Source of the DNA: a virus
IMG/VR virus record: IMGVR_UViG_3300019751_000156
Span: 1 to 27,916 of that record
Direction: 5' to 3' (one strand)
Length of the DNA stretch: 27,916 nt
The position numbers and the translations under genes are program-made. This document shows, one piece after another, positions 2,924 through 26,361 of the stretch (within the stretch, counting starts at the first letter, position 1; the number at the start of each line of letters is the position of its first letter). Under the pieces are notes generated by a model. The model ran no database searches, was not told the DNA's origin, and saw only the letters and a list, made by a program, of their open reading frames with translations.

Positions 2924-3268
2924 ATGAATATTACACCTTTACCTTCCGGACACTATGTCGTAATCTTTAATAACGACGAATCCGATCAGGTCATAAATTT
3001 TCAAAAAGAAAATGAAAAAGACAAACTAGTCTACGTCTGTAGAGATGGCACTAGTAATAAATACATCTACCCCGACAGATTTGTCGTGGAGAATTATCAT
3101 ACCTCAATGTTATCTCATTTGCTATATGAGAACAAAATATTTGAGGATCAACAGGAAGAGCATATGTTAAAGATGGCTCAAACCTTCATAGAGACAGGTA
3201 GACAAGTCTTTATAGAAGAGTATGAGTTTTCGGAAGCAGACCCCTTCTACGATTACAGTAAATTATAA
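2924..3268 (+). CDS. Hypothetical protein, first gene of the nrd operon
   Basis: 114 aa, acidic, with no recognisable domain. The N-terminal half is beta-rich (GHYVVIFNNDESDQVINF), and the C-terminal half is helical and rich in Glu. A GGAG ribosome site lies five bases before the ATG at 2924; a GTG at 2918 is in frame but overlaps that site. Being first after a consensus early promoter, it is probably made early. I do not recognise it; it could be a host-takeover factor, with no direct evidence. Confidence 0.65.
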   Translation: MNITPLPSGHYVVIFNNDESDQVINFQKENEKDKLVYVCRDGTSNKYIYPDRFVVENYHTSMLSHLLYENKIFEDQQEEHMLKMAQTFIETGRQVFIEEYEFSEADPFYDYSKL

Positions 3269-3278
3269 TGGGAAAAAA

Positions 3279-5270
3279 ATGATCAAGATCAATAAGAAAA
3301 AGGATGACCTACTAGCAGACTATGCTGTGGGTATGTTAAAGGATTTCTATCTAAACGATTACGAAAACTCGCCTCAAGAAGGTTATGCACGTGCTGCCAA
3401 GGCATGGGCGACATATAAGGGAGAAATGGATGAAGGACTCTCTGAACGCTTATATGATTATGTTAGTAATAAGTGGTTTATGTTTGCAAGTCCGGTTCTA
3501 TCTAATGCACCGAATGGACATGGCAAAGGAAAGGGGATGCCAATCTCCTGTTTCCTTACGTATGTCCCAGATACTCTGGAAGGTCTCATTGGTCATAGTT
3601 CTGAGTTACGTTGGCTTAGTGTTTACGGCGGGGGTGTCGGGGGTCATTGGTCTGACGTGCGAACCGTGTCTGAGATTGCTCCAGGCCCCATTCCCTTCCT
3701 TCACACTGTAGATGCAGATATGATTGCTTACCGTCAAGGTAAGACTCGTAAAGGATCATATGCGGCCTATATGGATGTGAGTCATCCAGACATTATTGAA
3801 TTCTTGAACATGCGTATTCCTACGGGTGATGTGCAACGTAAGGCATTGAACCTACACAACGCAATCAATATCACCGATGAGTTCATGGAAGCTGTTCGTG
3901 ACAACAAAGAATTTGCACTACGTGACCCGAAAGACGATTCAGTAAAAGAAACTATCAGTGCACGAAAACTATGGGAAAGAATACTTGAAGTCCGGTTTCG
4001 CACAGGTGAACCATACCTGAACTTTATCGACACTGCAAATAAAGATTTGCCTCAACCACTAAAAGACTTGGGTCTCAAAATCAATGGATCGAATCTTTGT
4101 AATGAAATTCACTTACCGACAAGTGCAGAGAGGACTGCTGTTTGTTGCTTGTCATCACTAAACTTGGAATACTATGATGAATGGAAAGATACTACAATTG
4201 TCGCTGATCTTATTACTATGCTTGATAACGTCTTGCAGTACTTCATCGACGAAGCACCCGACACAATCACAAGAGCCAAATACTCCGCCGAAAGAGAAAG
4301 GTCAATCGGTCTTGGAGCCATGGGATTTCACTCGTTGTTACAAAAACACGGAGTTGCTTGGGAGTCCGAGAGAGCTAGAGATATCAATAAGGTTGTGTTC
4401 GAAAGAATTAAGGATCAGGCATCGAAACAGTCTGCTCTATTGGCAACTGAAAGAGGAGAGTACCCTGATGGGGTGGGAAGTGGACAACGTAACGCCCATC
4501 TTCTTGCAATTGCTCCTAATGCCTCAAGTGGCGTAATCCTATCAACGAGTCCATCTATTGAACCTTTGAAGGCAAATGCGTACACGCATCGAACCCGAGC
4601 GGGAAGTTTTTTGGTGAAGAACAAGTATCTTGACAAATTACTTACCGAGCGGGGTATAAATACTGATTCGATCTGGAAGTCTATTATTACTAGTAAAGGT
4701 TCGGTGCAACATTTACCAGAACTCACTGAAGGTGAGAAAAGCATATATAAGACTGCACAAGAATTAGATCAAACATGGATTATCAAACATGCGGCTGATA
4801 GACAACCTCATATTTGTCAAGGTCAATCTGTGAATCTTTTCTTCCCGTCTGGTGTCCAGAAGTCTTATGTCAACAAGGTGCACTTGAAGGCATGGGAATC
4901 CGGTCTCAAAGGACTCTACTACCTACGTACAGAATCAAGTTCTCGTGCGGAGAATGTGTCTGAAAAGGTAGAGAGAGTAGCACTTGAAGATGATAACCGT
5001 ACCTTGGTGTATGGTAAGAAGAACTGTCCTTTCTGTGAAATGACTAAGGACGAATTAAATCTACGTGGTATTCCATTTGATTATATCGATCTAGAAGAGG
5101 TAGGTAAAACTGCCGCTGAAGTAACAGGTAGAAAAGTAAAGACCGTTCCGCAAGTTTACCTTGAAGGTGAGTATGTGGGTGGTTACGAAGAGTTGATGAA
5201 ATATTTAAACAAAACCGCTGAACTAGATGGTCTAGATGAAGGCGACGAATGTAAAGCTTGCGAGGGATAA
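3279..5270 (+). CDS. nrdA: Ribonucleoside-diphosphate reductase alpha subunit fused to glutaredoxin
   Basis: 663 aa. It reduces ribonucleoside diphosphates to deoxy forms together with the beta subunit encoded next. Counterparts of the E. coli catalytic residues are visible: Cys91 (PISCFLTY) and Cys289 (AVCCLSSLN) as the redox pair, NLCNE at 272-276 with radical Cys274, and YY at 547-548 for radical transfer. There is no N-terminal ATP-cone, so the usual dATP overall-activity switch is missing. Residues about 575-650 are a glutaredoxin domain with CPFC at 583-586 and TVPQVYLEGEYVGGY. After it come a short acidic linker and CKAC at 658-661, like the mobile C-terminal thiol tail of NrdA. I chose ATG 3279; an in-frame ATG at 3222 lies inside the upstream gene and would add 19 atypical residues. 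Confidence 0.96.
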   Translation: MIKINKKKDDLLADYAVGMLKDFYLNDYENSPQEGYARAAKAWATYKGEMDEGLSERLYDYVSNKWFMFASPVLSNAPNGHGKGKGMPISCFLTYVPDTLEGLIGHSSELRWLSVYGGGVGGHWSDVRTVSEIAPGPIPFLHTVDADMIAYRQGKTRKGSYAAYMDVSHPDIIEFLNMRIPTGDVQRKALNLHNAINITDEFMEAVRDNKEFALRDPKDDSVKETISARKLWERILEVRFRTGEPYLNFIDTANKDLPQPLKDLGLKINGSNLCNEIHLPTSAERTAVCCLSSLNLEYYDEWKDTTIVADLITMLDNVLQYFIDEAPDTITRAKYSAERERSIGLGAMGFHSLLQKHGVAWESERARDINKVVFERIKDQASKQSALLATERGEYPDGVGSGQRNAHLLAIAPNASSGVILSTSPSIEPLKANAYTHRTRAGSFLVKNKYLDKLLTERGINTDSIWKSIITSKGSVQHLPELTEGEKSIYKTAQELDQTWIIKHAADRQPHICQGQSVNLFFPSGVQKSYVNKVHLKAWESGLKGLYYLRTESSSRAENVSEKVERVALEDDNRTLVYGKKNCPFCEMTKDELNLRGIPFDYIDLEEVGKTAAEVTGRKVKTVPQVYLEGEYVGGYEELMKYLNKTAELDGLDEGDECKACEG

Positions 5271-6426: not shown

Positions 6427-6846
6427 ATGTGGTACTATCGAGAACACGCAAACTTCTTCACTGAAGAAGACGTTGGAGACAATTACGGATTCGTATATTG
6501 TATAACCAACAGAGCTACCGGAAAGAAATATATCGGTAAGAAATTCTTTTGGTCTAAAAGAACTCTTCCACCGTTGAAGGGTAAAACTCGTAAGAGAAAG
6601 AAGATAGTGATGTCTGATTGGCAGGACTACTACGGTTCTAACGAGGAATTGAAAATGTTGGTTGAGAAGAATGGTAAGGATGTATACCATCGTGAAATAC
6701 TCCGTTTGTGTAAAACAAAAGGTGAGTGTTCATACTACGAAGCCAAACTTCAATTTGAAAACGATGTGTTACTCAGTGATGAGTACTACAACGAATTTAT
6801 AGGATGTAAGATTCATGCAAGCCATATCAAACACCTCAAATCATGA
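6427..6846 (+). CDS. GIY-YIG superfamily protein (putative nuclease)
   Basis: 139 aa. The N-terminal third shows the GIY-YIG signature in variant form: GFVY at 21-24 and YIGKK at 35-39, separated by ITNRATGK. These are followed by a Lys/Arg-rich segment and, near residue 100, ECSYYEAKLQFE, where the family's metal-binding Glu is expected. There is no added DNA-recognition domain, so it looks like a free-standing single-domain nuclease of the type found beside nrd genes in T4-like phages. It might be a homing-type nuclease, a repair enzyme or an inactive relative. No ribosome site is clear; the ATG is five bases after the preceding stop. Confidence 0.75.
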   Translation: MWYYREHANFFTEEDVGDNYGFVYCITNRATGKKYIGKKFFWSKRTLPPLKGKTRKRKKIVMSDWQDYYGSNEELKMLVEKNGKDVYHREILRLCKTKGECSYYEAKLQFENDVLLSDEYYNEFIGCKIHASHIKHLKS

Positions 6847-7420
6847 TTGTATAGTCGCTTGGTCTGGGGGTGTAGAAAGCACCTCACTAGTACATCAACT
6901 TGTACTAGAAAAAAGAAACCCTCTTATAATCCATTTAGAAATCTATAACAACGACATTCAAGCCAATACGTTTGAGACATATGCAGTAGAACGTATGTCT
7001 GATATGCTTGGTGTTGAAGTAAGTTTCATCGAATGTAAATCATCAATCCCCGATGTGAAGAAGACCGCCGAGTTCTGGAAACACAGAAAGTTTGGTGGTG
7101 GATACCCTGTCCTACCCTTGTGGACTAGTATGGCCTTCATGACTCAGATTGTCAACCCTTGGTGCAAAGATATCTACATAGGTAAAAACAGTTCGGATGG
7201 TAATGCAGATACATGGGAAGTTGCACAAAATTATTGCAAACAACAAGGTAAACTCTTTGGGTTTGAGAGTGAGATGTCCGCTCCATTGGAACATCTAAGT
7301 AAGAAAGAACAGTGGTTAATGATCCCTAAAGAGGTCAGACCCCATATAAGAACATGCACATCGAAAAACTCTAAGGCATGTGGTAAGTGTTCGAAATGTA
7401 AAGAAATGGAAAGAATGTGA
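6815..7420 (+). CDS. QueC-like PP-loop ATPase (7-cyano-7-deazaguanine synthase family)
   Basis: 201 aa. The ATP-pyrophosphatase loop is SGGVEST at 17-23, where most members have SGGxDS, so Asp is replaced by Glu. The C-terminus has the zinc site typical of QueC: C181, C189, C192 and C195 in the arrangement CTS...ACGKCSKC. QueC adenylates a carboxylate and converts it to a nitrile with ammonia on the route to preQ0. No QueD, QueE, FolE or DNA transglycosylase gene is visible in this window, so classical deazaguanine synthesis is not shown. The gene overlaps the GIY-YIG gene by 32 bases and the next gene by four (ATGA), so it is probably co-translated with the ANL enzyme. The exact substrate is unknown. 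Confidence 0.8.
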   Translation: MQAISNTSNHDCIVAWSGGVESTSLVHQLVLEKRNPLIIHLEIYNNDIQANTFETYAVERMSDMLGVEVSFIECKSSIPDVKKTAEFWKHRKFGGGYPVLPLWTSMAFMTQIVNPWCKDIYIGKNSSDGNADTWEVAQNYCKQQGKLFGFESEMSAPLEHLSKKEQWLMIPKEVRPHIRTCTSKNSKACGKCSKCKEMERM

Positions 7421-8640
7421 AGATTAATAGAAAGTTAATAAACAAAGAAATTGAATACAACGATTCGTTCACCTATGATCACCTTGAAAGTTTGATCAAT
7501 AGGTGGAAACAATGTCTAGTAAAGAGACGTGCGAAGAAGGGAGACCTTGTTGCAATCTCTATCCTTAACGTAAACCACTGGCACGTGAGTGCATTGTTCG
7601 CCTGCGCTGAGTTGGGTTTACGTGTCATACTTTTAGACTCACCCGCAAAAAAGGAGTCATTACCCTTCACCAAACTCGCCAGATTCGGGCCTGCGAGGTT
7701 TTGTCTTGATGATGGTAGTGGTGATACCCTTTATGATGGGTTACATTTGGAGATGATAAACCAGTATGGTGGGGAGAAGATCAGTCCACCCCAAGTGGCC
7801 GATCTGGTAAATAAAAATATCCAACCGTGGGAAGTCCAACCGGAGGATGATTTCCTAATATCAAGTACTTCCGGAACCACAAAGTTCTCTAGACAGATTA
7901 CCTTCTCACACAAAGAAGTGTACGATATGAGTAAACGCAATATCGACATCTTTAAATTTGAACAGGACTCTGTTGTATTGCACACCAAGAACATGCACCA
8001 TGCGAGTGCAATGATTACCGATCTCATACCATCATTGATGGTATCCAAGAAACATTACAACATCACACTTGCGGATAGGAATGAGTGGCACGGCACATCT
8101 TCAAAAGAGTTCTATCGGTTCGTGAATTCCAAACACATATCCCATATGATCGTTCCGAATAGGGATGTTCTCAAATGGATACTATCTTCCGATCCTTACT
8201 TTGAAAACAATGTTCTCATGAATATGTCTGGGTTCACTATGGGGCCTGAATACAATACGATGTGTCTAAACCACAATATATCCTTCCTTCAACACTACGG
8301 GTCTATTGACACAGCCATACCTCTTCTGGTAAGATACCTACCTGAAGATGAGGATTCTGATTGGTGTCTTGGTTCTGTACCGGATGACTATTATGATGTC
8401 CGATTCAACGGCACGAGACTTCAGGTATCCTGTGATGACTGGACTCGTGAAATGGGTGATCTTGTAGAACAACGTGGAGATAAATACTATTTTGTTGGGA
8501 GAGTAATACAACAGGGGAATCCGGAGTTGGCTGATACCATACCGGAAGACCTTGATCTGACCCCTTTCTACCAAGATACTAAGCTGAATATGGATCAATT
8601 ACGTGGGTATTTGGACGTTGCTTATAACAAAAAAGTCTAA
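7417..8640 (+). CDS. ANL-superfamily adenylating enzyme, large domain only
   Basis: 407 aa. It has the core motifs of AMP-forming acyl/aryl-CoA synthetases and adenylation domains: the phosphate loop STSGTTKFSRQ at 150-160, QHYGS ending at 296 (the YGS/YGxTE motif), and GDLV at 347-350 followed by YYFVGR ending at 362. Known members have about 500 or more residues, with a C-terminal lid domain carrying a catalytic Lys. Here only about 45 residues follow GR, so the lid is absent or minimal. It would activate a carboxylate as acyl-AMP; the substrate cannot be read. The phosphate loop lacks the usual PKG and has FSR instead. ATGA overlap with the QueC-like gene suggests a shared pathway. Confidence 0.85.
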   Translation: MKINRKLINKEIEYNDSFTYDHLESLINRWKQCLVKRRAKKGDLVAISILNVNHWHVSALFACAELGLRVILLDSPAKKESLPFTKLARFGPARFCLDDGSGDTLYDGLHLEMINQYGGEKISPPQVADLVNKNIQPWEVQPEDDFLISSTSGTTKFSRQITFSHKEVYDMSKRNIDIFKFEQDSVVLHTKNMHHASAMITDLIPSLMVSKKHYNITLADRNEWHGTSSKEFYRFVNSKHISHMIVPNRDVLKWILSSDPYFENNVLMNMSGFTMGPEYNTMCLNHNISFLQHYGSIDTAIPLLVRYLPEDEDSDWCLGSVPDDYYDVRFNGTRLQVSCDDWTREMGDLVEQRGDKYYFVGRVIQQGNPELADTIPEDLDLTPFYQDTKLNMDQLRGYLDVAYNKKV

Positions 8641-10187: not shown

Positions 10188-10264
10188 CCGCTAGTAGCTC
10201 AGATGGATAGAGCATTGGTCTACGAAACCAAGGGTCAGGAGTTCGAATCTCTTCTAGCGGGCCA
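10188..10264 (+). tRNA. tRNA-Arg (anticodon ACG)
   Basis: A complete 77-base cloverleaf with encoded CCA. The acceptor stem is CCGCTAG/CTAGCGG with discriminator G, the D-stem GCTC/GAGC, the anticodon stem TTGGT/ACCAA around loop CTACGAA, the variable loop GGGTC, and the T-stem AGGAG/CTCTT around TTCGAAT. Anticodon ACG at 10223-10225 reads CGU directly, and also CGC and CGA if A34 becomes inosine. CGT arginine codons are frequent in the genes of this window, which fits a translation-support role. Confidence 0.95.
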
Positions 10265-13238: not shown

Positions 13239-13403
13239 ATGGCTAAATACAGCCGATTTGATTCCCGCAACAAAAAGCGGAATAAACATAAACAGTACTC
13301 AAAAGAAGGGTACGTAGGGAAAATACATAATGTCGAAGGAAAAAGAAGGATCAGTGAAAAACTTGATATTTCAGTACATGATCCTCAACCCCGATCTGGA
13401 TGA
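13239..13403 (+). CDS. Small basic phage protein (MAKYSRFDSRNKK family)
   Basis: 54 aa. The start SRFDSRNKKRNKHK is like small basic proteins of T4-like marine phages with an xRFDPRNKK N-terminus, which supports its being real. The last third runs inside the next gene in another frame, an overlap of 50-74 bases depending on that gene's start. The upstream GAGGG is about 14 bases away, longer than usual. Possibly nucleic-acid binding from its charge; unknown. Confidence 0.6.
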   Translation: MAKYSRFDSRNKKRNKHKQYSKEGYVGKIHNVEGKRRISEKLDISVHDPQPRSG

Positions 13404-14181
13404 ACAGAGAGGGCCTATCTTAGGACAATCACGTTCTAAGATTTATAGTGAATGCGCTGACATCTCTCGTAAATCGTTTGAGATATATGCCGATAAGATT
13501 GGTGCTGATTACTTGTATTCAGACCAAGCGGTGTATACCAAAGATGAGTATGAGAGGGACACCACCGTATGTCTCTTTGAATGTCTACGGTTAATCTACG
13601 ATCCTATCTTTGATGAATACGATAACGTGTTCTTTGCGGATACTGATATTGTAGTAAACACCGATGAGAGTATCTTTGATATCCACGAGGGGGATGTAAC
13701 AGGTATTCTAGAAAGTGATATCCGGACTGCAAGTGGTGGTGGATATAATGGTTGGGACTACAAAGAGAGTACCTACAACGATCAAGTCAGAAAGTTCGAA
13801 CATCACGGCATACCCATCACACCCGCAATGCCTCCAAATCGACCAAGTAAAATTCAGATAATGAATACTGGAGTAGTGGTTTGGTCTAAACAGGCTCGCT
13901 TACGTGCACGTGAGGTGTTTGATGATTGGAAAGAATGGTACTTCGAAGGGCCTCAAATACACATGTCCCTAATGAACGATCAACCCTACCTATCAGGTCA
14001 GTTTGTCAAACATGACTTTGACCTCAATCTAATCCTAGACCAGACATGGAATGATTCCCCGCACTATGCGACTGAGGACGAATTCTTTGAAAAGGCTAAG
14101 ATGTGTCACTACACGGGCGGTGAATGGAAGGTCGATATGATTAACCATTACCACGAAAATAAGTTCAAAATATTTGAATAA
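13354..14181 (+). CDS. GT-A-type glycosyltransferase
   Basis: 275 aa from GTG 13354, placed six bases after AGAAGGA; an in-frame ATG at 13330 would add eight charged residues. NLIFQYMI is the first beta-strand, and FFADTDIVV has the metal/nucleotide-sugar DxD at Asp96-Asp98. Later, QIMNTGVVVWSK is the N-TGV acceptor-side motif common in GT8-like and phage sugar transferases, and MNDQPYLS is the DQ motif. The donor and acceptor are unknown. It is the first of six transferases in the island and lies before the 14187 promoter, so it may be expressed with the lysis block. Confidence 0.8.
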   Translation: MKNLIFQYMILNPDLDEQRGPILGQSRSKIYSECADISRKSFEIYADKIGADYLYSDQAVYTKDEYERDTTVCLFECLRLIYDPIFDEYDNVFFADTDIVVNTDESIFDIHEGDVTGILESDIRTASGGGYNGWDYKESTYNDQVRKFEHHGIPITPAMPPNRPSKIQIMNTGVVVWSKQARLRAREVFDDWKEWYFEGPQIHMSLMNDQPYLSGQFVKHDFDLNLILDQTWNDSPHYATEDEFFEKAKMCHYTGGEWKVDMINHYHENKFKIFE

Positions 14182-14186
14182 AACGC

Positions 14187-14215
14187 TTGCCAAAACTCCC
14201 GATATGACCTATAAT
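14187..14215 (+). promoter_or_regulatory. Sigma-70-type promoter, TTGCC family, heading the sugar island
   Basis: -35 TTGCCA (14187-14192), 17-base spacer and perfect -10 TATAAT (14210-14215). AACGCTTGCC and ACCTATAATGTAT are shared with the promoter at 8660. It precedes the ATG at 14238, and no other strong promoter is seen until the late box at 20363. Confidence 0.8.
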
Positions 14216-14237
14216 GTATTAGTAATTGGGAGTTATT

Positions 14238-14831
14238 ATGGAAACAAGAAAAATGAAAGCAGATTACGAAAAGGTAATTCTGACTGATGTTGACGGCGTA
14301 CTCCTTAACTGGGGTTATGCGTTCAACATTTGGATGGAACAGCATGGCCATAAGAAAGTTGAGGACGTTTATACAGTCCACAAAGCATATGGTATTGATA
14401 GAGATGCGAGTAAAAGACTCGTAAGACAGTTCAATGAGAGTGCGGCTATTGGGTTTTTACCACCCCTTAGAGACGCTATCCACTATGTAAGAAAACTGCA
14501 TGAAGAGTATGGATACGTATTCCATGCGATTACTAGTTTGAGTCTTGATCCCCATGCGGGAGAACTCAGAACCCAAAACCTTAAGAAGTTGTTTGGAGAG
14601 ACTGCGTTTGAAAAGTATGTCTACTTAGACACTGGTGCTGACAAGGACGAAGCCCTTGCAGAGTACAAGGATACTGGATACCTCTGGGTTGAAGATAAAG
14701 TAGAAAACGCATTAGTCGGAGATAAGGCCGGACTAGATAGTGTTATAATGGAACATGGTTATAACATGCATAGAAATGAACTGCCTCTCATGAAGGGATG
14801 GAAGGACATCTATGAATATCTAGAGGGTTAA
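14238..14831 (+). CDS. HAD-superfamily phosphatase
   Basis: 197 aa from ATG 14238 with GGGAG upstream. The catalytic loop TDVDGVLLNW has nucleophile Asp17 and acid Asp19. AITSLS near residue 95 fits motif II (Thr/Ser), and LWVEDKVENA in the C-terminal third fits the acidic motif IV. It is a HAD-type hydrolase, probably of a phosphorylated sugar or nucleotide; similar proteins in T4-like phages are often called 5'-nucleotidases. It is first in the operon behind the 14187 promoter and directly abuts the carbamoyltransferase, which suggests a shared pathway. Confidence 0.8.
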   Translation: METRKMKADYEKVILTDVDGVLLNWGYAFNIWMEQHGHKKVEDVYTVHKAYGIDRDASKRLVRQFNESAAIGFLPPLRDAIHYVRKLHEEYGYVFHAITSLSLDPHAGELRTQNLKKLFGETAFEKYVYLDTGADKDEALAEYKDTGYLWVEDKVENALVGDKAGLDSVIMEHGYNMHRNELPLMKGWKDIYEYLEG

Positions 14832-16385
14832 ATGACACGATATGTAGGATTCTCAGAGTTCTATCATGATGCGGGAGTCAGTGTTATCGAAGAGGATGGC
14901 ACTGTCTCTTATGCTACACATGCAGAACGCTGGTCAAAGAAAAAGAACGATGCGACAATCCCAGAAAAACTCTGGGATTTTGTCGGCCAAAAACCAGACG
15001 AAAAAATTTCTTTCTATGAAGATTGGGCATTGAAGTTTGGTAAACGTGGTGGAATCAACGTAGATGGTGGTGTCAGAGATGATAACATGCGTTTCAGAGA
15101 CGCTGATGACAAACACTTTATAAGGTGGAGAGGTGAAAGCGATGTCCAGAAGTATTCAGCCAGGGTTCCTATACATGAAGGTCTAGTATACGACCAGTTT
15201 CATTTACATCATGAATCACATTGTGCAGGCGCACTATACACCCGCCCTTGGGACTCTATGGATGATACCGTATGTGTATCTATTGATGGTGCTGGAGAAG
15301 TCCAGTGTTCCGTTATCATGGACTCTAAGTTCAACATAATCAAAGAGTGGCACTATCCTAAGTCAATAGGAATCATCTACAGTATAGTTACAAAGGCCCT
15401 TAAACTGCGTCCCCTTGAGGATGAGTATGTTGTTATGGGACTAAGTTCTTATGGAGAGGATGAGTTCTCCGACTGGATTTACGAACAGTACCACCAATTC
15501 ACAGACGAAGCGAGAGAACTCATGGAGGGTGTCAGGATATCCTCAGAGAATTCCGCAAGAGAAAAACAAAGAAAGTCTTTCACCGCTGCACTTATACGTA
15601 GGTGTTTACGTACAACACCAGAAAACGCAGCTGCATCTGTACAGAAGTTTACAGAAAAGGCTATCATGGAGATCATGCGTGAGGCACGTAAACATGGATC
15701 AAAGTTAGTTTATTCCGGAGGGTGTGCACAGAATGTTGTGGTCAATAGTCTACTTCACGAACTATTTGATGAGGTACATATTGCAATCGCACCAGCGGAC
15801 TCAGGGTCTTCTCTAGGTGCAGCTGCAAAGACTTGGGCAGAAGAGACGGGTGGAAACAAACTAATCTGGACTCCATACATGGGGACTAATATTGACCGTG
15901 AGATCAACCCAACGGAGGTTGTAGATTACTTGTTATCAGACAAAGTATGTGGTGTTGCAAATGGACGTGCAGAGTTTGGCCCACGTGCACTAGGTAATCG
16001 ATCCTTAATTGCAGATGTCCGATATGATGTCAAGGACACAGTAAACGAAATCAAACAAAGGCAGAAGTACCGACCTTTTGCCCCTGCCATCCTTGAAGAG
16101 TATGTAGATGAGTACTTCGAAGGGCCAACAAATGAGTATATGCAGTTCACATCTAAAGCACTACATGACTATAAGTCCGTGATTCACGTAGATGGAACCG
16201 CACGTGTACAGGTTGTACGTAAAGATTGTCAGTCTATATTCAGAAAGATTATAGAAGAATATTATGAGCGCACTGGAGTGCCAATGTTACTAAATACTAG
16301 CTTGAACATCCGTGGGAGACCAATGGTAGATGATGAAGCAGATGCCAAAATCTGGCAGAGTAAATATAACATAAGGGTATTCTAA
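14832..16385 (+). CDS. O-carbamoyltransferase, NodU/CmcH/TobZ family
   Basis: 517 aa. It transfers a carbamoyl group from carbamoyl phosphate, via carbamoyl-AMP, to a hydroxyl of a sugar or base. The N-terminal Kae1-like domain shows GFSEFYHDAG, the metal site HHESH (126-130) and SIDGAGE with Asp152. SGGCAQN and then GSSLGAA follow. The C-terminal YrdC-like part has the signature GRAEFGPRALGNRS, PFAPAIL and NTSLNIRGRPMVD. All motifs expected for activity are present, and the length is slightly below the usual 550-600. In phages, carbamoyltransferases have been linked to cytosine hypermodification as well as to glycans; the substrate here is not readable. Confidence 0.93.
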   Translation: MTRYVGFSEFYHDAGVSVIEEDGTVSYATHAERWSKKKNDATIPEKLWDFVGQKPDEKISFYEDWALKFGKRGGINVDGGVRDDNMRFRDADDKHFIRWRGESDVQKYSARVPIHEGLVYDQFHLHHESHCAGALYTRPWDSMDDTVCVSIDGAGEVQCSVIMDSKFNIIKEWHYPKSIGIIYSIVTKALKLRPLEDEYVVMGLSSYGEDEFSDWIYEQYHQFTDEARELMEGVRISSENSAREKQRKSFTAALIRRCLRTTPENAAASVQKFTEKAIMEIMREARKHGSKLVYSGGCAQNVVVNSLLHELFDEVHIAIAPADSGSSLGAAAKTWAEETGGNKLIWTPYMGTNIDREINPTEVVDYLLSDKVCGVANGRAEFGPRALGNRSLIADVRYDVKDTVNEIKQRQKYRPFAPAILEEYVDEYFEGPTNEYMQFTSKALHDYKSVIHVDGTARVQVVRKDCQSIFRKIIEEYYERTGVPMLLNTSLNIRGRPMVDDEADAKIWQSKYNIRVF

Positions 16386-16714
16386 TGGCAGAAGAAGAAG
16401 TAAAAACGAAAGAATTCCATCCCGCAGATTCGAATGGGGACGGTAAAGTATCCTCTGAAGAACATGCAATGTATCTTGAGGCTAAAAGAAAAGAACTTGA
16501 TGACCAAGATGCAATGCGAGATGCACAACGTAACATGACATGGTTCGCCTTGTTTGGTTTATTGTTGTATCCGTTTGCGGTGGTAATTGCCTCACTTGTG
16601 GGTCTAGATCAAGCAGCAAAAACACTAGGTGATATGGCCCCTACATACTTTGTAGCGGTTGCTGGTATTGTGGCTGCATTCTTTGGTGCACAAGCATTTA
16701 GTAAAGGCAAGTAA
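16385..16714 (+). CDS. EF-hand membrane protein, two helices
   Basis: 109 aa. A canonical EF-hand loop lies at 15-26 (DSNGDGKVSSEE: Asp15, Asn17, Asp19, Lys21, Ser23, Glu26). A charged helix follows, then two membrane segments at about 53-74 and 85-104. Topology puts both ends on the same side, probably the cytoplasm. Small EF-hand-plus-membrane proteins are a recurring type in T4-like marine phages with no settled function. A calcium-sensing holin or envelope protein is a guess. TAATG overlap joins it to the carbamoyltransferase. Confidence 0.7.
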   Translation: MAEEEVKTKEFHPADSNGDGKVSSEEHAMYLEAKRKELDDQDAMRDAQRNMTWFALFGLLLYPFAVVIASLVGLDQAAKTLGDMAPTYFVAVAGIVAAFFGAQAFSKGK

Positions 16715-16725
16715 CAGGATGAACT

Positions 16726-17625
16726 ATGGTTATGGAAAAGGTGACATGGAGAGGAACGCCAGGCGTAGGTGATTTCATGTGGGCACTTAACTGTGTCCAC
16801 CTTCACGCTCACACTCAGAAAACAAAAGTCAACTTAGAGATGCACTGGGAACATGGCCCAGATCATTTACATCACTTCGAAGACCCCGAAACTATTATAG
16901 AAAGAATGGACTACATCCACTCGCTTTATGCGAAGAAAGATGATGTAGAGGTTTCGCACGTCTTTTATTCTGGTGATAGATATACTGATTGGAAGTATGA
17001 TGATGACGTTGTGGTTGAAAATTCAATCAAAAGAATCATGCACCCGAAAGAAAGAGGCGAAGACACCAGCGATTGGAAGGCTCGTTTCTGGTTCGAGAAT
17101 GGTAGATGGTCAGACGGGAAAGGTGACAGGTCTCCGGACAATGATTGGTTGTTTCGAAAAGAAGCGTTCAGAGATACAGTAAGAAACAAGGTTGTAGTCT
17201 GGACACCACTGTTCAATGCGGAAAAACCAAGAGGCTGGAAAACTAAGTTGACAAAGCTTGATTGGGATGTTATAATACAGAAACTACGCCGAGCGGGATT
17301 AGATGTAGTTGAGTTGTGTTACAGAACTCCTGTAAGAGAAGTTGTATATCACATATCTACATGTAGACTCGTGCTTTGTTATGATGGTATGTGGCATTAC
17401 GTTGCAAAGAACTTTGCTAAGCCTCTTGCAGTGATCAGTAAAGAGGGAGTAACTAAATACCACACCGATCATGCAATAAGAATTAATCCCGATCACTCAC
17501 CAGAACAGATTAAACAGTTTGGTAAAGATATCTGGTGGTGGTTAAACAGACCCAAAGAACTGCTGGGTCATAGTAAATACAAAGCAGTTAAATATGAAAA
17601 TGAAATGAGAAGTATTATAAAATGA
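16726..17625 (+). CDS. Glycosyltransferase-like protein (GT-B/GT9-like)
   Basis: 299 aa. The start WRGTPGVGDFMWALNCVHLH resembles the glycine-rich N-terminal loop of ADP-heptose:LPS heptosyltransferases (GT9). The C-terminal half has STCRLVLCYDGMWHYVAKNF followed by KPLAVIS, close to the GT9 donor-site pattern (D-G-x-x-H-x-A, then a Pro-Val strand). Overall similarity is weak, so only the fold is proposed. An AGG site lies six bases before the ATG. It overlaps the radical SAM gene by four bases. Trp and acidic residues are unusually frequent. Confidence 0.6.
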   Translation: MVMEKVTWRGTPGVGDFMWALNCVHLHAHTQKTKVNLEMHWEHGPDHLHHFEDPETIIERMDYIHSLYAKKDDVEVSHVFYSGDRYTDWKYDDDVVVENSIKRIMHPKERGEDTSDWKARFWFENGRWSDGKGDRSPDNDWLFRKEAFRDTVRNKVVVWTPLFNAEKPRGWKTKLTKLDWDVIIQKLRRAGLDVVELCYRTPVREVVYHISTCRLVLCYDGMWHYVAKNFAKPLAVISKEGVTKYHTDHAIRINPDHSPEQIKQFGKDIWWWLNRPKELLGHSKYKAVKYENEMRSIIK

Positions 17626-18599
17626 ATGACATTAGCATTGATCGAGCCGTTATAGAGATAAACGGTGGTTGTAACTATTCGTGTAGTATGTGTCCACAGG
17701 ACAGAAGGACTGGTGGAAGAGATAAGAGATTCCTCGCAAAGATGGGATTGGAGGAGTTCGAAAAGAACGTAAAGGATTGTGCTCAACATGGTTTACGTGT
17801 TGTCAATCTGGAGGGTTCCGGTGAACCCACACTCAATAGAAACATGCCTGAGTATGTCAAGATTGTTAAGAAGTATGGCGCAAGTTGTTTCGCATTCTCT
17901 AATGGATTTCGAATGAAGGGTAAGTTCATGCGTGACTGTGTTGATGCAGGCCTTGACTTCTACAGATTCTCATTCATTGGATCAGACGAACAGGATTACT
18001 CTAAGTGGATGTACAATACAATCCACGGACAGTATCACGAAATTAAACAGAACATCCGTGAGATGGTAGATTACGTTAACAAAACAGGAAGTAAATGTGT
18101 TATTGCTACCTATCATCTTATCACTGATAACGATAACATTGATAAAGAGTTGGAACAATATAAAGAACTTGTGGCAGAACTTGGTATCAAAACAGAAATC
18201 TGGAAGATGCATAACTGGAGCGGAGTCTACAAACCTTCCTACGATAGAGAAGGCGGGGTCAAGAGTTGCGGTAGGCCTTTTTCTCCTGACGTTGTTATTC
18301 GAGCAGGTGGTCTAGATGGTAAGAGTGGTGCAGTAGCACCCTGTTGTCAAGTATTAGGTCAAGACGAAGAGGCAGTTCTAGGTCACACTTCTGAGAATAC
18401 AATCGAAGAGGTTATTCGTGGCCCTGAGTACTCTGCGTTACGTGAGGGTCATCGAACAGGCAACTATCCAGATTACTGTAAGTCTTGTGACTTCTTAATT
18501 GACGATCCGGAAGTATTAGTTTGGACAAACCATGAGAGAGACCTATATAAGATGCATGGTACAGATTTCGATCTGAATGACTATCGGGAGATAACATGA
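17622..18599 (+). CDS. Radical SAM enzyme with SPASM-type C-terminus
   Basis: 325 aa. The radical SAM cluster motif is C17-NYS-C21-SM-C24, and GSGEP at 65-69 is the SAM-binding glycine motif. The C-terminal region has Cys216 (CGRPF), Cys241-Cys242 and C286-KS-C289, the layout of a SPASM auxiliary iron-sulfur domain. Known SPASM enzymes oxidise or cross-link peptides, dehydrogenate sugar alcohols or modify aminoglycosides, so a sugar or virion peptide substrate is possible. Its place among glycosyltransferases favours sugar chemistry; this is inference. ATGA overlaps on both sides show strict coupling. Confidence 0.88.
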   Translation: MNDISIDRAVIEINGGCNYSCSMCPQDRRTGGRDKRFLAKMGLEEFEKNVKDCAQHGLRVVNLEGSGEPTLNRNMPEYVKIVKKYGASCFAFSNGFRMKGKFMRDCVDAGLDFYRFSFIGSDEQDYSKWMYNTIHGQYHEIKQNIREMVDYVNKTGSKCVIATYHLITDNDNIDKELEQYKELVAELGIKTEIWKMHNWSGVYKPSYDREGGVKSCGRPFSPDVVIRAGGLDGKSGAVAPCCQVLGQDEEAVLGHTSENTIEEVIRGPEYSALREGHRTGNYPDYCKSCDFLIDDPEVLVWTNHERDLYKMHGTDFDLNDYREIT

Positions 18600-18826
18600 A
18601 AAAATTAATAGAATGGTTAAAGACCTTATTCCTTGAAGAGTACGAACTGACCGTATGGTATAAAGGCGGTACAGATTTTGACCCCAAGACTACCAAAAGA
18701 GTCTACAGGATGAAGTCTATTTCCAAGAAAACACAAACACATTTTAAGGGTACACAGACTAATGGTAAGTCCCTTGAAATCAAAACAACAGCACCATTTG
18801 ATTATCAGATAGAGAAACTATATTAA
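18596..18826 (+). CDS. Small conserved phage protein (EYELTVWYK family)
   Basis: 76 aa. An amphipathic start (MKKLIEWLKTLFLEEYELTV) is followed by a beta-rich body (KRVYRMKSISKKTQTHF, then GKSLEIKTTAPFDYQIEKLY). I recognise this small protein from many T4-like marine phages, where it occurs in varied gene settings and has no function assigned. It lies between the radical SAM and a glycosyltransferase gene with ATGA/TAATG overlaps, so it is co-translated with the island, but it need not be part of the pathway. Confidence 0.65.
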   Translation: MKKLIEWLKTLFLEEYELTVWYKGGTDFDPKTTKRVYRMKSISKKTQTHFKGTQTNGKSLEIKTTAPFDYQIEKLY

Positions 18827-19611
18827 TGAAGCGAATGATCTATCAGGTTGCCGTAGGTAAACCTTCTAAATTATACGAACACTGTATTGAAAGTGTTTCT
18901 TATTATTGCCAAAAGCATGATATTGTACATTATGTGCAACGTTCTCCGGTGTATCGTATTGCACCCGATCCATTTAACATGGGCCGGTCTCGTGAGTCTT
19001 TTGAGAAGTATGGTGGTTATCTACCCATCTTTGAGAAAGAAGTGGCCTTTGATTACCTACCCAACTACGATCAGATCGCAATCATAGATGCAGACATCTA
19101 CATCAAACCGGACGCACCAAATATCTTCGAAGACTTTGGAACGGAACATGCCTTCGGGGCTGTCTGTGAACGTGACATGCATATTGAACCTTGGTATGTA
19201 AACAAAATACAGAACTACTCAATGATGCAGTATGGACACTTGCATACAAACAAGATTGACTTCAGACCGAATCAACACGGATTTGAGTTCTTCAATATGG
19301 GTATGATACTTTTAAATTCTGAGAGTTTCCTACCATTTTTGAAGGGACAGTCTGGTAAACAATTTATTGAACGTTCAGAGTTCAAAGACTTTGTTGACGG
19401 TAAAGGTGCATGGAAGTGGTCTACCGATCAGACACTACTGAACTATTTTCTAAAGAAGTATAAAGTACCTGTTCGACATATGAATCCTAAGTGGAATGGA
19501 TTGTATACTGCTGTAAAAAACTTAGATAACTGTGAGTTCATTCACTTCTTCCTGAAGGACAAGTTGCCTGACGGAGGAGAAAACATTAAAGAGTTAATGC
19601 GTGGACTATGA
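18826..19611 (+). CDS. GT-A glycosyltransferase (GT8-like)
   Basis: 261 aa. IAIIDADIYIKPDAPNIF carries the DxD motif (Asp88-Asp90) on the expected strand. GFEFFNMGMILLN is the N-M-G acceptor motif, WSTDQTLLNYFLKK the DQ motif, and PKWNGLY plus EFIHFF the C-terminal metal-binding area. Together these fit a metal-dependent GT8-like sugar transferase. Donor sugar and acceptor unknown. No signal or membrane anchor, so it acts in the cytoplasm. It overlaps the next gene by four bases. Confidence 0.82.
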   Translation: MKRMIYQVAVGKPSKLYEHCIESVSYYCQKHDIVHYVQRSPVYRIAPDPFNMGRSRESFEKYGGYLPIFEKEVAFDYLPNYDQIAIIDADIYIKPDAPNIFEDFGTEHAFGAVCERDMHIEPWYVNKIQNYSMMQYGHLHTNKIDFRPNQHGFEFFNMGMILLNSESFLPFLKGQSGKQFIERSEFKDFVDGKGAWKWSTDQTLLNYFLKKYKVPVRHMNPKWNGLYTAVKNLDNCEFIHFFLKDKLPDGGENIKELMRGL

Positions 19612-20381
19612 AACCCAAAGTAAAATTTGCATTACAGTACCCGTCTGGTGCTGGGGGTATGTTTCTTACTGAGTTAATTTATCCCACTACCGAAGATGAA
19701 TCTGGTAAGTGGCCAACTAACCCCGGCTGCAAGAGAAACGTACTCTGGAACGAGTACGGTGGGTCTCTTCACTGTCGCCAACTTGATGGGACTACCGAAC
19801 CCCTAGAGGTAGACGATAGAACTATCTTGGTTGCAAAACAAAACATAGAAAACTATCTACCCCACTACGATGTGCCTATCACATATGTCATCGACGCAAG
19901 TGATGATGACTCATTTGAATACACCCTAGAACTTATGTTCATAAAGAAGTGGTTATCTCCAAGGTTAAGTATGTCTGAGGATGACCGCAAGTTGATTGAC
20001 GATTCTGGTGTAGAGGTTCCTCATAATATTGTTGACAAGTATAGTCTTGCCGTGTTACAATACGTGAAACATGGCAGAGATGAATGGTCTCTAGAGCGTA
20101 ACATCTATGGATATAGAAACGCCTGGCTTAAAGACGGGAAAGAAAAACGACCCGCTGAAGTATGGGTGAAGAACCAGTATAGGAATCTAGTCATCAACCA
20201 TGAAGAGATTGAGAAACATAGTAAGTTAGAGATAATCAACTATGCGGATTTGTTTCTATACGGATTACCGACAGAGACAATCTTTGATAAGTATGAACAG
20301 AAGATACTAGAGTATCGAAAAAGAAATGATGAAATTCTCATGATGTTTGAGAAAGAAATTGTTATAAATAGCACAAGGTGA
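19608..20381 (+). CDS. Sulfotransferase-like P-loop protein (tentative)
   Basis: 257 aa. The N-terminus LQYPSGAGGMFLTELIY looks like the strand-loop-helix that binds the 5'-phosphosulfate end of PAPS, with a Gly-rich loop in place of Walker A. The rest is charged and helical, with VWVKNQYRNLVINHEEIEKH in the C-terminal third. No clear 3'-phosphate motif (R..S) is visible, so assignment to sulfotransferases is uncertain; it could be another P-loop kinase-like family. Its last bases contain the late promoter at 20363. Confidence 0.45.
   Translation: MKPKVKFALQYPSGAGGMFLTELIYPTTEDESGKWPTNPGCKRNVLWNEYGGSLHCRQLDGTTEPLEVDDRTILVAKQNIENYLPHYDVPITYVIDASDDDSFEYTLELMFIKKWLSPRLSMSEDDRKLIDDSGVEVPHNIVDKYSLAVLQYVKHGRDEWSLERNIYGYRNAWLKDGKEKRPAEVWVKNQYRNLVINHEEIEKHSKLEIINYADLFLYGLPTETIFDKYEQKILEYRKRNDEILMMFEKEIVINSTR
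20363..20370 (+). promoter_or_regulatory. T4-type late promoter box (TATAAATA)
   Basis: An exact TATAAATA inside the last codons of the preceding gene, 50 bases before the ATG at 20421. It and the box at 301 share TATAAATAG. It stands before the only gene here with a long leader and an AAAGGAG ribosome site, which supports function. It would raise expression of the di-iron protein and the downstream genes late in infection. Confidence 0.65.
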
Positions 20382-20420
20382 ACTATCTATATTAAGAGTG
20401 TGAATTTAAAGGAGAACCCT

Positions 20421-21119
20421 ATGCAACAACCTAAAGAATTTGTGAATCAACTTCGCAAAGAAAACCAAGCGCTTTTCGAAGCGTCTAAAATGAATGTCAA
20501 AGCCTACTTCGAAGGTGACCTACCTGAAGAAGAAATGGTTGATCACTTCATTGGCCGTATGGTTAATGAAAGAATGAACATGACAGAAATCTCTGCACAG
20601 ATCGCCAAGGTAGACGATAATGCAGACCCTAAAGAACTTGAACTTCTAACCAGACAAGCAGCTGATGAAGCAAAGCACTATCGTATGGTTAAAGAAGTAA
20701 TCGAACATATTAAGGGTGAAGAGATTAATGTTGCTGAAGCGCTTGAAGCAGAACGTCAAGCAGACACAGCAAAAGGTGCAACACTTCTAGAGAAGTACGA
20801 TGCGGAGAATGATGAAGCAGTTCTTGCTGCCTATCAGTTAGTTGCGGAAGGACGTGCGGAAGCGGTCTGGAATCAAATGGCAGATACGATCAAGGATGAA
20901 TTTATTTCTAGTCGTTATCGTACAATCGCAAAGGATGAAGGTTTCCATTCCTCTATTGGTGGATGGAAGTTGCGTAAACTTGCAACAGATGAAGAAACAC
21001 AATCACGTGTTAAATCAGTTGTTGAGAAGATGCGTAAAGACCTTTTCGAAATCTCGTGTGCAAACACAGTAGAAGCTAACGGATCAAGAGAACTAGTAAA
21101 CGAAGCCTACGGCTGGTAA
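20421..21119 (+). CDS. Ferritin-like di-iron protein
   Basis: 232 aa, all-helical. Six likely metal ligands appear in ferritin-like order: Glu50, Glu83-xx-His86 (DEAKH), Glu143 or Glu147 (AEGRAEAVW) and Glu173-xx-His176 (DEGFH). This is the two-ExxH pattern of di-iron oxygenases, oxidases and rubrerythrin-like proteins. No substrate-defining motif is recognised; hydroxylation of a sugar, base or amino acid, or protection from peroxide, are options. AAAGGAG lies six bases before the ATG at 20421, and the late promoter at 20363 feeds it. In-frame sequence upstream of 20421 lacks such a site. Confidence 0.8.
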   Translation: MQQPKEFVNQLRKENQALFEASKMNVKAYFEGDLPEEEMVDHFIGRMVNERMNMTEISAQIAKVDDNADPKELELLTRQAADEAKHYRMVKEVIEHIKGEEINVAEALEAERQADTAKGATLLEKYDAENDEAVLAAYQLVAEGRAEAVWNQMADTIKDEFISSRYRTIAKDEGFHSSIGGWKLRKLATDEETQSRVKSVVEKMRKDLFEISCANTVEANGSRELVNEAYGW

Positions 21120-21125
21120 TAGATT

Positions 21126-21704
21126 ATGAAAATTGGACTGACTCAAAGAGTAGTCCTTTATTCGGAACGATCTGGAATCACGGGTGACTTCACTGATCAT
21201 GGGTGGTATGATTCACCTCTGACCAAAGGTCACACGTTGATTCCTGTTCCGAACAGAAAGGACTTAGATTATGACGGACTTGCTGAAGAGTTAGACCTTC
21301 TGATCATAACTGGTGGTAGGAACGAAGACATTCGTGTCATCACCGAAACCGAAATAGCAACCTCAATGGTATCAATGGGCAAACCTGTTCTGGGTATTTG
21401 TCATGGTGCCTTCTTACTTACCCACATTTTGGGTGGACAAGTTGACGGCGATAAAGAACAACACTTCTTCTCAGAACATACCAACTACTATGAAACACAA
21501 GGTAGAGAAGTTACAGTTAATAGTTCCCACACCGTCTTCATAAAGAACAAACCACCCGGCGCACAGATTCTCTGTACCGATCCCGAAGGAGACTGCGAGT
21601 CTTGGATCAAGGATAACATCTGTGCTATAGTATGGCATCCAGAAAGAATGGATGTTCCATTTGTACCAGATGAAATTCTAGAAGCTACGGGACTAACATT
21701 ATGA
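21126..21704 (+). CDS. Class I glutamine amidotransferase-like protein
   Basis: 192 aa. The triad of class I amidotransferases is complete: nucleophile Cys92 in GICHGAFLL, then His171 and Glu173 in VWHPERM, with the LLIITGGRNED loop before them. Such proteins release ammonia from glutamine for a partner synthase, or hydrolyse gamma-glutamyl compounds (peptidase C26). No synthase domain is fused, so a partner in the island would be needed; surface-sugar amidotransferases of the HisH/WbpH kind are a parallel. The ATGATGA overlap couples it to the cupin gene. Confidence 0.82.
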   Translation: MKIGLTQRVVLYSERSGITGDFTDHGWYDSPLTKGHTLIPVPNRKDLDYDGLAEELDLLIITGGRNEDIRVITETEIATSMVSMGKPVLGICHGAFLLTHILGGQVDGDKEQHFFSEHTNYYETQGREVTVNSSHTVFIKNKPPGAQILCTDPEGDCESWIKDNICAIVWHPERMDVPFVPDEILEATGLTL

Positions 21705-22375
21705 TGAACGATCTATCACATAACTCAATTACAAATGTCACGAACATTTGGCAGTATCAGGTTCATGTCTGGAAGGGTATGAACGACAACATAACAATGC
21801 CTGAACACGAGGGTACAAGATACATTCTATCTCTCGACGCATCAATCCACACCGATACAATTAACATGGGTGGGTTACAATGTAACGCATTACAAACCAA
21901 TTGTAAGAGTCCTTGGGCAAAGTTACATAAACAAACATCTACGGTTGTGGATATTAGGTTCTCAGGGTTGAACCTAAACGAAGAAAGCATGTATGTCACA
22001 GACGGTCTAACGACAGGAAACTTGTCTTACATGGATGGTGGTACTAACAGCAATGCAATCAGTCCACCTCGTGCGGGTCTGCCTGTTGTCAACTACACAC
22101 ACTTTCCCGCAAAGATGTCTCAAACCCTACACACCCACCCTAGTCAGAGAATCGGTTTGGTTCTAAATGGCCATGGTGAAATTGAATTAGATAATCACAA
22201 ACACTTTCGACTTGAGAAAGGTTCTGTCTTTTTTATGGAACGTAATACACTACATAATTTCATAACGCATGACGAAGACGTAACCCTTTTCGTGTTTGCC
22301 CCCGACTCCGGAACAGGGCCAACAGATGAAGTGAATCCTTTGAAGGTACGTACTTATGTCGGACAACAACGATAA
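21701..22375 (+). CDS. Cupin-domain protein
   Basis: 224 aa. The C-terminal domain (about 135-205) has cupin motif 1, HTHPSQRIGLVLNGHGEIEL, and a motif 2 built from GSVFFMERNTLHNF. The metal ligands would be His-x-His, Glu or Gln, and the later His. The first 130 residues match nothing I know but could be a second, degenerate cupin barrel. Cupins in glycan clusters are often sugar epimerases or isomerases, or sensors. A second ATG three bases downstream is an equally possible start. It overlaps the next gene by 20 bases. Confidence 0.75.
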   Translation: MMNDLSHNSITNVTNIWQYQVHVWKGMNDNITMPEHEGTRYILSLDASIHTDTINMGGLQCNALQTNCKSPWAKLHKQTSTVVDIRFSGLNLNEESMYVTDGLTTGNLSYMDGGTNSNAISPPRAGLPVVNYTHFPAKMSQTLHTHPSQRIGLVLNGHGEIELDNHKHFRLEKGSVFFMERNTLHNFITHDEDVTLFVFAPDSGTGPTDEVNPLKVRTYVGQQR

Positions 22376-22994
22376 AAAACTTATTATTATAACAGGCCCA
22401 CAGGGTTCTGGTAATCACCTTTTTAGTAAAATATTCAATGTCCATCCGGATGTAAATGGATGGGACTTTGGAGACAAGTACTGGATTCCCAGTGACGAAG
22501 AACCTTTCGCTGAATGTTGGGTAGACCCATCTAAAACAAAAGAGAAACTTACCGGACGTTACATGGTAGCGAATGTTAGTGTACCTTTCGTATATGATGG
22601 TGTACGTCAAGTTCCTAAGATACAGGAAGTGGCGGACGAAGCGAGAGAAGCTGGTTATGAAGTTACTATTGCGATTGTTTGTAGAGATGCAAATATCAAT
22701 GCACTGCAACAGAAGAGAGTTCGATTTGAGATCACTCTGGGACAAGCGATGGAATATTATCGCAACCTACAAAACGTTGAACGTGCATTTCTATCACACG
22801 AGTCGTTGTACCTTCACAAATGTATGTACCTAAAGTGGTTGTCTACGATACTAGACTTTCCTATTGCATTCTCGGACAAACAAGTGTTTGCTCATCTAGA
22901 AGAAGATCAGAACCGCAAGTATGTTACATACGTAGAACAACACTGGTTGGATCAACAGGTTTGGGATGGATTAAGGCCTAAAAGTGAAAGATAA
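22356..22994 (+). CDS. P-loop protein, probable sulfotransferase-like
   Basis: 212 aa. IIITGPQGSGNHLFSKIF places a P-loop at 14-21 followed by a helix, as in a group of phage proteins I recall labelled sulfotransferase-like. IAIVCRDANINALQQKRVRF near residues 105-124 would be the 3'-phosphate/helix region, and SHESLYL with HKCMYLKWLSTIL follows. A kinase is the main alternative. It is coupled to the genes on both sides (overlaps of 20 and 11 bases), the downstream one having a related N-terminal loop. Confidence 0.55.
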   Translation: MSDNNDKKLIIITGPQGSGNHLFSKIFNVHPDVNGWDFGDKYWIPSDEEPFAECWVDPSKTKEKLTGRYMVANVSVPFVYDGVRQVPKIQEVADEAREAGYEVTIAIVCRDANINALQQKRVRFEITLGQAMEYYRNLQNVERAFLSHESLYLHKCMYLKWLSTILDFPIAFSDKQVFAHLEEDQNRKYVTYVEQHWLDQQVWDGLRPKSER

Positions 22995-23586
22995 CTATGT
23001 TCTAATGACAGGTGCGCCTGGCAGTAGGTGGAGTAGTGTGGCGAATAGTCTTATGCGATGCGTAGACTTTGACATCACTGACAAGTCATCTGATCGAGCT
23101 TATAAACATCACAATGGTCTATTACATTCGGGTTCATACTTTGACCCCGGCATGGAGTTTGAGTTTGAAAAGGATCAGTGGGACTTACCCTTTAATTCCT
23201 ATCATGACCAGTGTAAGAAACGTCTCATCAAGTCACATACTCTTGCAACTCAATTAAAGAACTATAAGAAGTACCCTATTGTTTTGGTACTGAGAAATGA
23301 CTGGGAGTGTTTTAATTGGTGGATGGAATGTGGAGGGTTTGATATTCAATACCCCAACTACCAGTGGTATAAAAATCCGAACAATATGTTTTTACAGATT
23401 CAAAGGCAAAATAAAGCTATTAACAAATTCATATATAATAACACGAACAAAATAGTTAAATGTACAACTAACAGGGGAACCATAAAGGCATTAGGTCTAA
23501 GTGATTACGGAATGTCTGATCCTGCTGTTATTGATAATTACAATGAGAGGGATATTTGTGTCTATGTCTACAAATCCACATCGTGA
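22984..23586 (+). CDS. Sulfotransferase-like phage protein (TGAPGSRWSS family)
   Basis: 200 aa from GTG 22984. The loop MTGAPGSRWSSVANSL, then SGSYFDPGMEFEF, RLIKSHTLA, PIVLVLRNDWECFNWWMECG and FDIQYPNYQWY match a protein family I recognise in T4-like marine phages near sugar genes. The R-N-D and S-H-T motifs sit where sulfotransferases hold the 3'-phosphate of PAPS, but activity has not been shown to my knowledge. Paired with the preceding P-loop gene by an 11-base overlap. An enzyme or a glycan-binding role are both possible. Confidence 0.6.
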   Translation: MKDNYVLMTGAPGSRWSSVANSLMRCVDFDITDKSSDRAYKHHNGLLHSGSYFDPGMEFEFEKDQWDLPFNSYHDQCKKRLIKSHTLATQLKNYKKYPIVLVLRNDWECFNWWMECGGFDIQYPNYQWYKNPNNMFLQIQRQNKAINKFIYNNTNKIVKCTTNRGTIKALGLSDYGMSDPAVIDNYNERDICVYVYKSTS

Positions 23587-24115
23587 GTTTTTAAAAGATT
23601 ACTTCACTAACACATGGCCTACTTCTCGTACCGCTGGTTTTGATCGTTACTATTGGACGGGGTTTAGGTTAATTGATGAAATTGCAAAAGAAGAAAGAGT
23701 ACTTGATGTCGGTTGTGGAGTTAATCCTCTTAAGCGCCATCTTCCTAATTTGCATGGTATCGATATCACCGATATAGGTGCGGACGAAGTTGTCGCAATA
23801 GAAGACTTCGAAGTATTTGGTGCACCCTATGAAGATCATTTTGATGTGGCTCTTTGTCTGGGTAGTTTGAATTTTGGGGATAGAGATTTAATCAGATTGC
23901 AATGTAAGAAAGTTGCAGAAGCATTAAAACCTAAATCAAGAATTTACTGGAGATGTAATCCAGGCCATCGTGATCATGGCAACAATAGAGTTGGAGAAGT
24001 ACCTTTCTTCAATTGGACTATTGAAGATCATTTAGAGTTTGCAAAAGAAAATGGGTTTAGAGTGACAGAGTTCATGCCCGATGAAAATAGGATGTATGTG
24101 AAATGGGAACGTTAA
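23558..24115 (+). CDS. SAM-dependent methyltransferase
   Basis: 185 aa from GTG 23558, six bases after AGAGGG; an ATG at 23564 is the close alternative and one at 23543 is also in frame. SAM-binding motif I is VLDVGCG at 48-54, motif II acidic LHGIDITD, and FDVALCLGSLNFGD is the motif IV strand. It is a Rossmann class I methyltransferase with no target domain for DNA recognition, so a small-molecule, sugar or protein target is likely. It overlaps the preceding gene by 29 bases and the next by 13. Confidence 0.82.
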   Translation: MSMSTNPHREFLKDYFTNTWPTSRTAGFDRYYWTGFRLIDEIAKEERVLDVGCGVNPLKRHLPNLHGIDITDIGADEVVAIEDFEVFGAPYEDHFDVALCLGSLNFGDRDLIRLQCKKVAEALKPKSRIYWRCNPGHRDHGNNRVGEVPFFNWTIEDHLEFAKENGFRVTEFMPDENRMYVKWER

Positions 24116-25426: not shown

Positions 25427-25436
25427 GGCTATTGAG

Positions 25437-26357: not shown

Positions 26358-26361
26358 CATA

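Follow-up and report, generated by a model that had tools for sequence, protein, structure and literature searches.

Whether a QueC-like PP-loop ATPase and an ANL adenylate-forming enzyme, encoded side by side in a T4-like phage fragment, catalyze successive steps of one pathway is the question raised by a 27,916-base IMG/VR virus record, the full length of which is referred to here as the window. A preliminary description of this DNA had proposed a coupled two-enzyme pathway. The explanation that we favor, with a probability of roughly 0.58, is instead that the two genes are separable cargo, consisting of a compact ANL enzyme that works with a degenerate partner and of a QueC-like protein that acts separately. 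The features on which this argument is built are the following.

6427–6846, + strand: SegE-like GIY-YIG endonuclease gene, border of a variable slot (Pfam SegE_GIY-YIG, E 3.5e-40)
6815–7420, + strand: divergent QueC-fold PP-loop ATPase, 201 aa
6863–6880, + strand: modified PP-loop SGGVES, residues 17–22, with Glu for the usual Asp (Glu invariant in 13 aligned relatives)
7355–7399, + strand: zinc-type motif C-x7-C-x2-C-x2-C, residues 181–195
7417–8640, + strand: compact ANL adenylate-forming enzyme, 407 aa, GTG start
7861–7893, + strand: A3 phosphate loop SSTSGTTKFSR, residues 149–159
8296–8313, + strand: A5 motif YGSIDT, residues 294–299, with Asp where YGxTE has Glu (Asp invariant in 27 sequences)
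8542–8607, + strand: A10-like C-terminal mini-lid motif PEDLDLTPFYQDTKLNMDQLRG, with the putative catalytic K389 at 8581–8583

Gene junction and relatives of the window

Both open reading frames are real and lie on the + strand, the QueC-like frame beginning with ATG. The two genes had been reported to overlap by ATGA, and they do overlap in the window, but the shared sequence is GTGA (7417–7420). In G003, an IMG/VR genome of 147,636 bases that is the nearest complete relative, the genes do not overlap and are 66–78 nt apart, and therefore the overlap is not conserved. Comparisons of the window with G003 gave dN/dS values of 0.29 for the QueC-like gene and 0.15 for the ANL gene, and both are under purifying selection. 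The ends of G003 share a 244-bp repeat (99% identical), and this genome is, therefore, probably complete; its terminase and that of Phage C48C1 (Kyanoviridae) share 78% identity.

Near-identical QueC-like/ANL pairs were present in three IMG/VR records, and near-exact scans of viral contigs, using single proteins or two IUPAC patterns, recovered the same three records only. Wider relatives were gathered by walking along nrdB, which provided 80 relatives, and by profile searches, which provided 23 loci with a QueC-like gene and 143 confirmed relatives of the ANL enzyme, 80 of the latter being fetched. A tblastn search of INPHARED with the QueC-like and ANL proteins as queries gave zero matches at E 1e-3. 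The QueC-like profile matched a single contig in the genome collection, which was itself phage-like, and the ANL-family profile gave one weak and partial match among 299 Pseudomonadota genomes. Most of the ANL and QueC-like records are fragments, and absences outside G003 are weak.

A QueC fold with an altered substrate site

The preliminary description regarded the two proteins as divergent members of their families, which was correct, and ascribed to the first a QueC-like fold with a zinc site and SGGVES, an assignment borne out by profiles, the fold search, the four cysteines and the invariant Glu. The best phage family for this protein was PHROG 1550 (E 6e-13), and matches were also obtained with the PADLOC QueC model (3e-8) and with Pfam QueC (4e-4, under its cut-off); a profile built from 13 phage QueC-like sequences gave a whole-length match to B. 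subtilis QueC (E 6.6e-9). A Foldseek search with the predicted model, the pLDDT of which was 76 and fell to near 50 at the zinc end, ranked Cap9 first (E 5.5e-9), and Cap9 and QueC both scored Z 13.9. The protein resembles QueC (7-cyano-7-deazaguanine synthase; 3BL5, 2PG3) in its PP-loop Rossmann fold, four zinc-type cysteines and a lysine before the zinc region, and resembles Cap9 of type IV CBASS (9NTO) and QatC in the short form of the QueC fold, about 190–200 aa. The four cysteines (C181, C189, C192 and C195) are kept in its relatives, as are the KKEQ lysines (13/13).

In contrast to QueC, which has SGGxDS, all 13 phage QueC-like sequences have Glu in the PP-loop, and YxQxHxxE, VPxRN and YPDC, which are present in most of twelve bacterial QueC-family comparators, are missing from every one of them. 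The tyrosine that follows the first zinc cysteine in QueC is also missing from the window protein. Its zinc motif is of the C-x8-CxxCxxC type, as in QueC, with x7 as the first spacing. Two named phage QueC-like proteins differ from the present family by carrying the canonical SGGLDS; in MiCath, queD, queE, folE and a transglycosylase gene are adjacent, and F86 has genes annotated as GTP cyclohydrolase.

These differences bear on a deazaguanine pathway, in which the QueC-like protein would make preQ0 or attach a deazaguanine to DNA or protein. Membership of the QueC family and the zinc motif are consistent with such a pathway. Y35, R99, Y131 and Y189 are essential in E. coli QueC, and the canonical substrate motifs are retained in Cap9 (PMC13329287), which grips the base with the Tyr and Asp of YxDC (Y115 and D117; PMC13279940); the equivalents of the E. 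coli motifs and of YxDC are all absent from the phage family. Searches for queD and folE gave no match in G001, G002 or the 147.6 kb of G003, and host genes could supply them. The earlier statement that no other deazaguanine genes are seen thus holds for queD and folE in G003, while for queE and the transglycosylase it covers the window only. One candidate for QueE, the radical SAM/SPASM gene at 17622, was rejected, its match being weak and far under the cut-off of that model. With its substrate motifs lost and no queD or folE found in the related records, the QueC-like protein is unlikely to carry out preQ0 synthesis or deazaguanylation, and we regard a deazaguanine pathway as highly improbable. 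The same loss of every substrate motif that is essential in QueC and kept in Cap9 disfavors both a deazaguanine product and the Cap9/QatC-type deazaguanylation that had been considered for this protein (PMC13329287, PMC13279940).

Cap9 and QatC also differ from the phage protein in their surroundings, as neither a CD-NTase or QatB gene nor a gene for an N-terminal-glycine substrate was recognized beside the QueC-like gene. With regard to an N-terminal-glycine substrate, the ANL protein begins with MKIN in the window and perhaps with MGNS in G003, the start codons being uncertain. A degenerate Cap9/QatC-like fold might act against type IV CBASS or Qat as a counter-defense decoy, which would be in line with Cap9 and QueC as the closest folds and with a slot that adjoins a GIY-YIG gene, given that the GIY-YIG protein SegB of T-even phages amplifies anti-defense genes (PMC13096335). 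However, the conserved PP-loop, lysine and zinc cysteines point to an active enzyme, the PADLOC QueC model also matches 292 of 398 Pseudomonadota genomes and, thus, is not CBASS-specific, and a distant branch of the QueC-like family (26–28% identity) sits among the virion genes of other phages. A decoy is accordingly an improbable role for this protein.

Under the preferred explanation of separable cargo, the QueC-like protein would act on its own as a zinc-binding PP-loop ATPase, adenylating a substrate that is not 7-carboxy-7-deazaguanine and joining a nitrogen nucleophile to this substrate in a putative ATP-dependent ligation. A phage branch of QueC stripped of its deazaguanine site bears on the reuse of this scaffold.

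A compact ANL enzyme with a vestigial tail

The assignment of the second protein to the ANL family was well founded. Pfam AMP-binding matched above its cut-off (E 4e-10), and the AlphaFold2 model, based on an alignment of 27 phage sequences, had a mean pLDDT of 88 and reached, at best, a Z of 31.6 against ANL cores, with an rmsd of 2.6 over 335 residues. The A3 P-loop SSTSG(S/T)T is conserved across the 27 relatives (STSGTT in the window), and GD...GR is present in the window protein; the Gly-Arg of A8 is not conserved within the family. The amide bond synthetase McbA (6SQ8, 6H1B) and the N-domain of FACL13 (3T5C) have in common with the phage enzyme a full N-terminal adenylation core, the P-loop, the A5 and A7 positions and an A10-like lysine. 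The phage family differs from the ANL acyl- and aryl-activating enzymes in its A5 motif, YGS(I/V)D, and in a lid of approximately 100 residues being reduced to a tail of approximately 30.

The enzyme had also been described as lid-less, which is true of the mobile alpha/beta lid: this domain of approximately 100 residues is absent from the family, the window protein ends 45 residues past GR, and the model contains little more than one long helix beyond that motif. However, the C terminus retains a lysine motif resembling A10. The motif, DTK[ILV]x3QLR, lies in the last 30 or so residues, and its D387, T388, K389, Q394, L395 and R396 are invariant in 27 divergent relatives. The linker before it is poorly conserved, with a mean top-residue frequency of 0.21 that rises to 0.70 at the block. 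The spacing from Lys to LR equals that of the published A10 motif, GKI-x4-LR (PMC8388817), and the structural alignment of the ANL model with McbA ended in the pair 389–483, K483 being the catalytic lysine of McbA, the K483A mutant of which was crystallized (PMC6282839). Spacing, conservation and the predicted model together suggest K389 as a putative catalytic lysine equivalent to that of A10.

The N-terminal core is envisaged to bind ATP and a carboxylic acid, and a vestigial tail at the C terminus, standing in for the alpha/beta lid, would offer K389 for the formation of acyl-AMP. The acyl-AMP would then most likely be transferred straight to an acceptor amine or hydroxyl, in the manner of the amide synthetases, rather than to CoA or a carrier protein. 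A thiolation step is considered unlikely because the mobile lid is lacking, and direct acyl transfer is proposed because there is no mobile lid, because no PP-binding/carrier-protein domain was found in G001, G003 or G004, and by analogy with McbA. Under this scheme, CoA-free acyl activation is the most likely activity of the enzyme; a host carrier protein could also serve as the acceptor, which would count against the preferred explanation. If this scheme is true, the phage enzyme marks how far the ANL fold may be reduced, with adenylation proceeding without the lid domain that usually swings between the half-reactions and with the catalytic lysine carried on a short tail. We found no published description of a compact ANL of this type or of a site-stripped QueC branch in a literature search of incomplete coverage.

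Companions of the ANL gene in a variable slot

The 80 relatives obtained by the nrdB walk reveal a variable slot 3' of the SegE-like GIY-YIG gene. In T4-like relatives, the ANL/QueC cargo comes immediately after the SegE-like gene. The ANL gene occupies this slot in approximately 100 marine phage loci and, at the ANL loci in which the flank is present, follows the SegE-like gene directly or one gene further on. The first cargo gene overlaps the 3' end of the SegE-like gene by 4–62 nt, and in the window it is the start of the QueC-like gene that is overlapped, by 32 nt. The family of 6427–6846 is named 'NAD synthetase' in PHROG 447 and in many GenBank phage records, although Pfam identifies it as SegE GIY-YIG, and the former label is probably a propagated misannotation. 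Downstream of the slot, the window carries a tRNA-Arg (acg) gene at 10188–10264.

Clustering of the ANL genes at 95% identity left 32 distinct genes, and their neighbors were compared. A degenerate ANL-like gene was adjacent in 21, alone in 18 and with an SGNH-like gene in 3; an SGNH-like gene alone was adjacent in 2, a QueC-like gene in 4, and none of these in 5. The degenerate neighbors lack the P-loop and the C-terminal part. At the level of whole records, a second ANL-like protein was found in 7 of 10 ANL-bearing records and in all five of those of at least 99 kb, where it is degenerate. In G003, this protein has 489 aa and no P-loop, and is encoded far from the nrdB slot beside two SGNH-like genes, which are related to those adjoining ANL in other phages (90.9–94.3 kb of the genome):

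L012:12876–14342, - strand: degenerate ANL-like gene
L012:10865–11614, - strand: SGNH-like gene
L012:11614–12444, - strand: SGNH-like gene

Since a second ANL-like protein occurs in all of the long records and the QueC-like gene is scarce, it is the degenerate ANL that constantly accompanies the ANL enzyme, and the QueC-like protein is optional. Searches of 15 other ANL-bearing records yielded no QueC-like gene, and those of 8 QueC-like-only records, which are themselves fragments, yielded no ANL gene. QueC-like genes without ANL occur in two other phage lineages, one in the same slot and the other being the distant branch. Members of this branch with SGGVES are located at L120:5195–5839 and L122:5944–6591, in a virion-gene module of unrelated phages.

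The coupled pathway proposed earlier is not supported by this distribution; the gene-neighborhood survey, set beforehand as its refuting test, found that the QueC-like and ANL genes rarely co-occur. A narrower version, in which the ANL enzyme activates an acid that the QueC-like protein amidates or conjugates, thereby replacing the degenerate ANL, may be envisaged for the subclade in which the two are paired, but is doubtful. The four ANL genes with a QueC-like gene directly upstream all fall in one five-row subclade of the ANL tree (98/96), where the pair has been kept over about 48% (QueC-like) and 60% (ANL) identity, zero loci combine a QueC-like gene with an adjacent degenerate ANL, and the genes overlap translationally in the window. 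On the other hand, a sister ANL gene nested inside this subclade (L030) has no QueC-like gene, which indicates a loss, the overlap is missing in G003, G003 also carries a degenerate ANL elsewhere, and the QueC-like gene occurs alone in the same slot. The survival of the pair over approximately 60% ANL identity may reflect cooperation within that subclade.

According to the explanation that we prefer, the QueC-like and ANL genes sit side by side in a hypervariable slot next to the SegE-like gene of marine T4-like phages but are separable cargo, and the ANL enzyme would partner a degenerate ANL-like protein whose gene is adjacent or lies at another site of the genome, frequently with SGNH-like genes close by. 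An extension of this partnership to a two-protein ANL system in marine T4-like phages, comprising a lysine mini-lid subunit and a degenerate subunit with optional SGNH-like and QueC-fold add-ons, is a tentative proposal that we consider somewhat less probable than not. Such a system, if real, would acylate or amidate a phage or host macromolecule by a chemistry undescribed in phages.

Several other genes were noted. The NrdA frame of the window (3222–5270) ends, by eye, in a glutaredoxin-like segment (CPFC), and an IscU-like iron-sulfur scaffold frame, also recognized by eye, lies between nrdA and nrdB in G003 (L004:6079–6456), with none there in the window. A long run at 13330–27668 of the window contains glycosyltransferase-like, NodU-type carbamoyltransferase and radical SAM/SPASM genes, together with class I glutamine amidotransferase, cupin and methyltransferase-like genes. 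The glutamine amidotransferase at 21126–21704 matches gamma-glutamyl-CDP-amidate hydrolase, though below the cut-off (E 1.8e-9).
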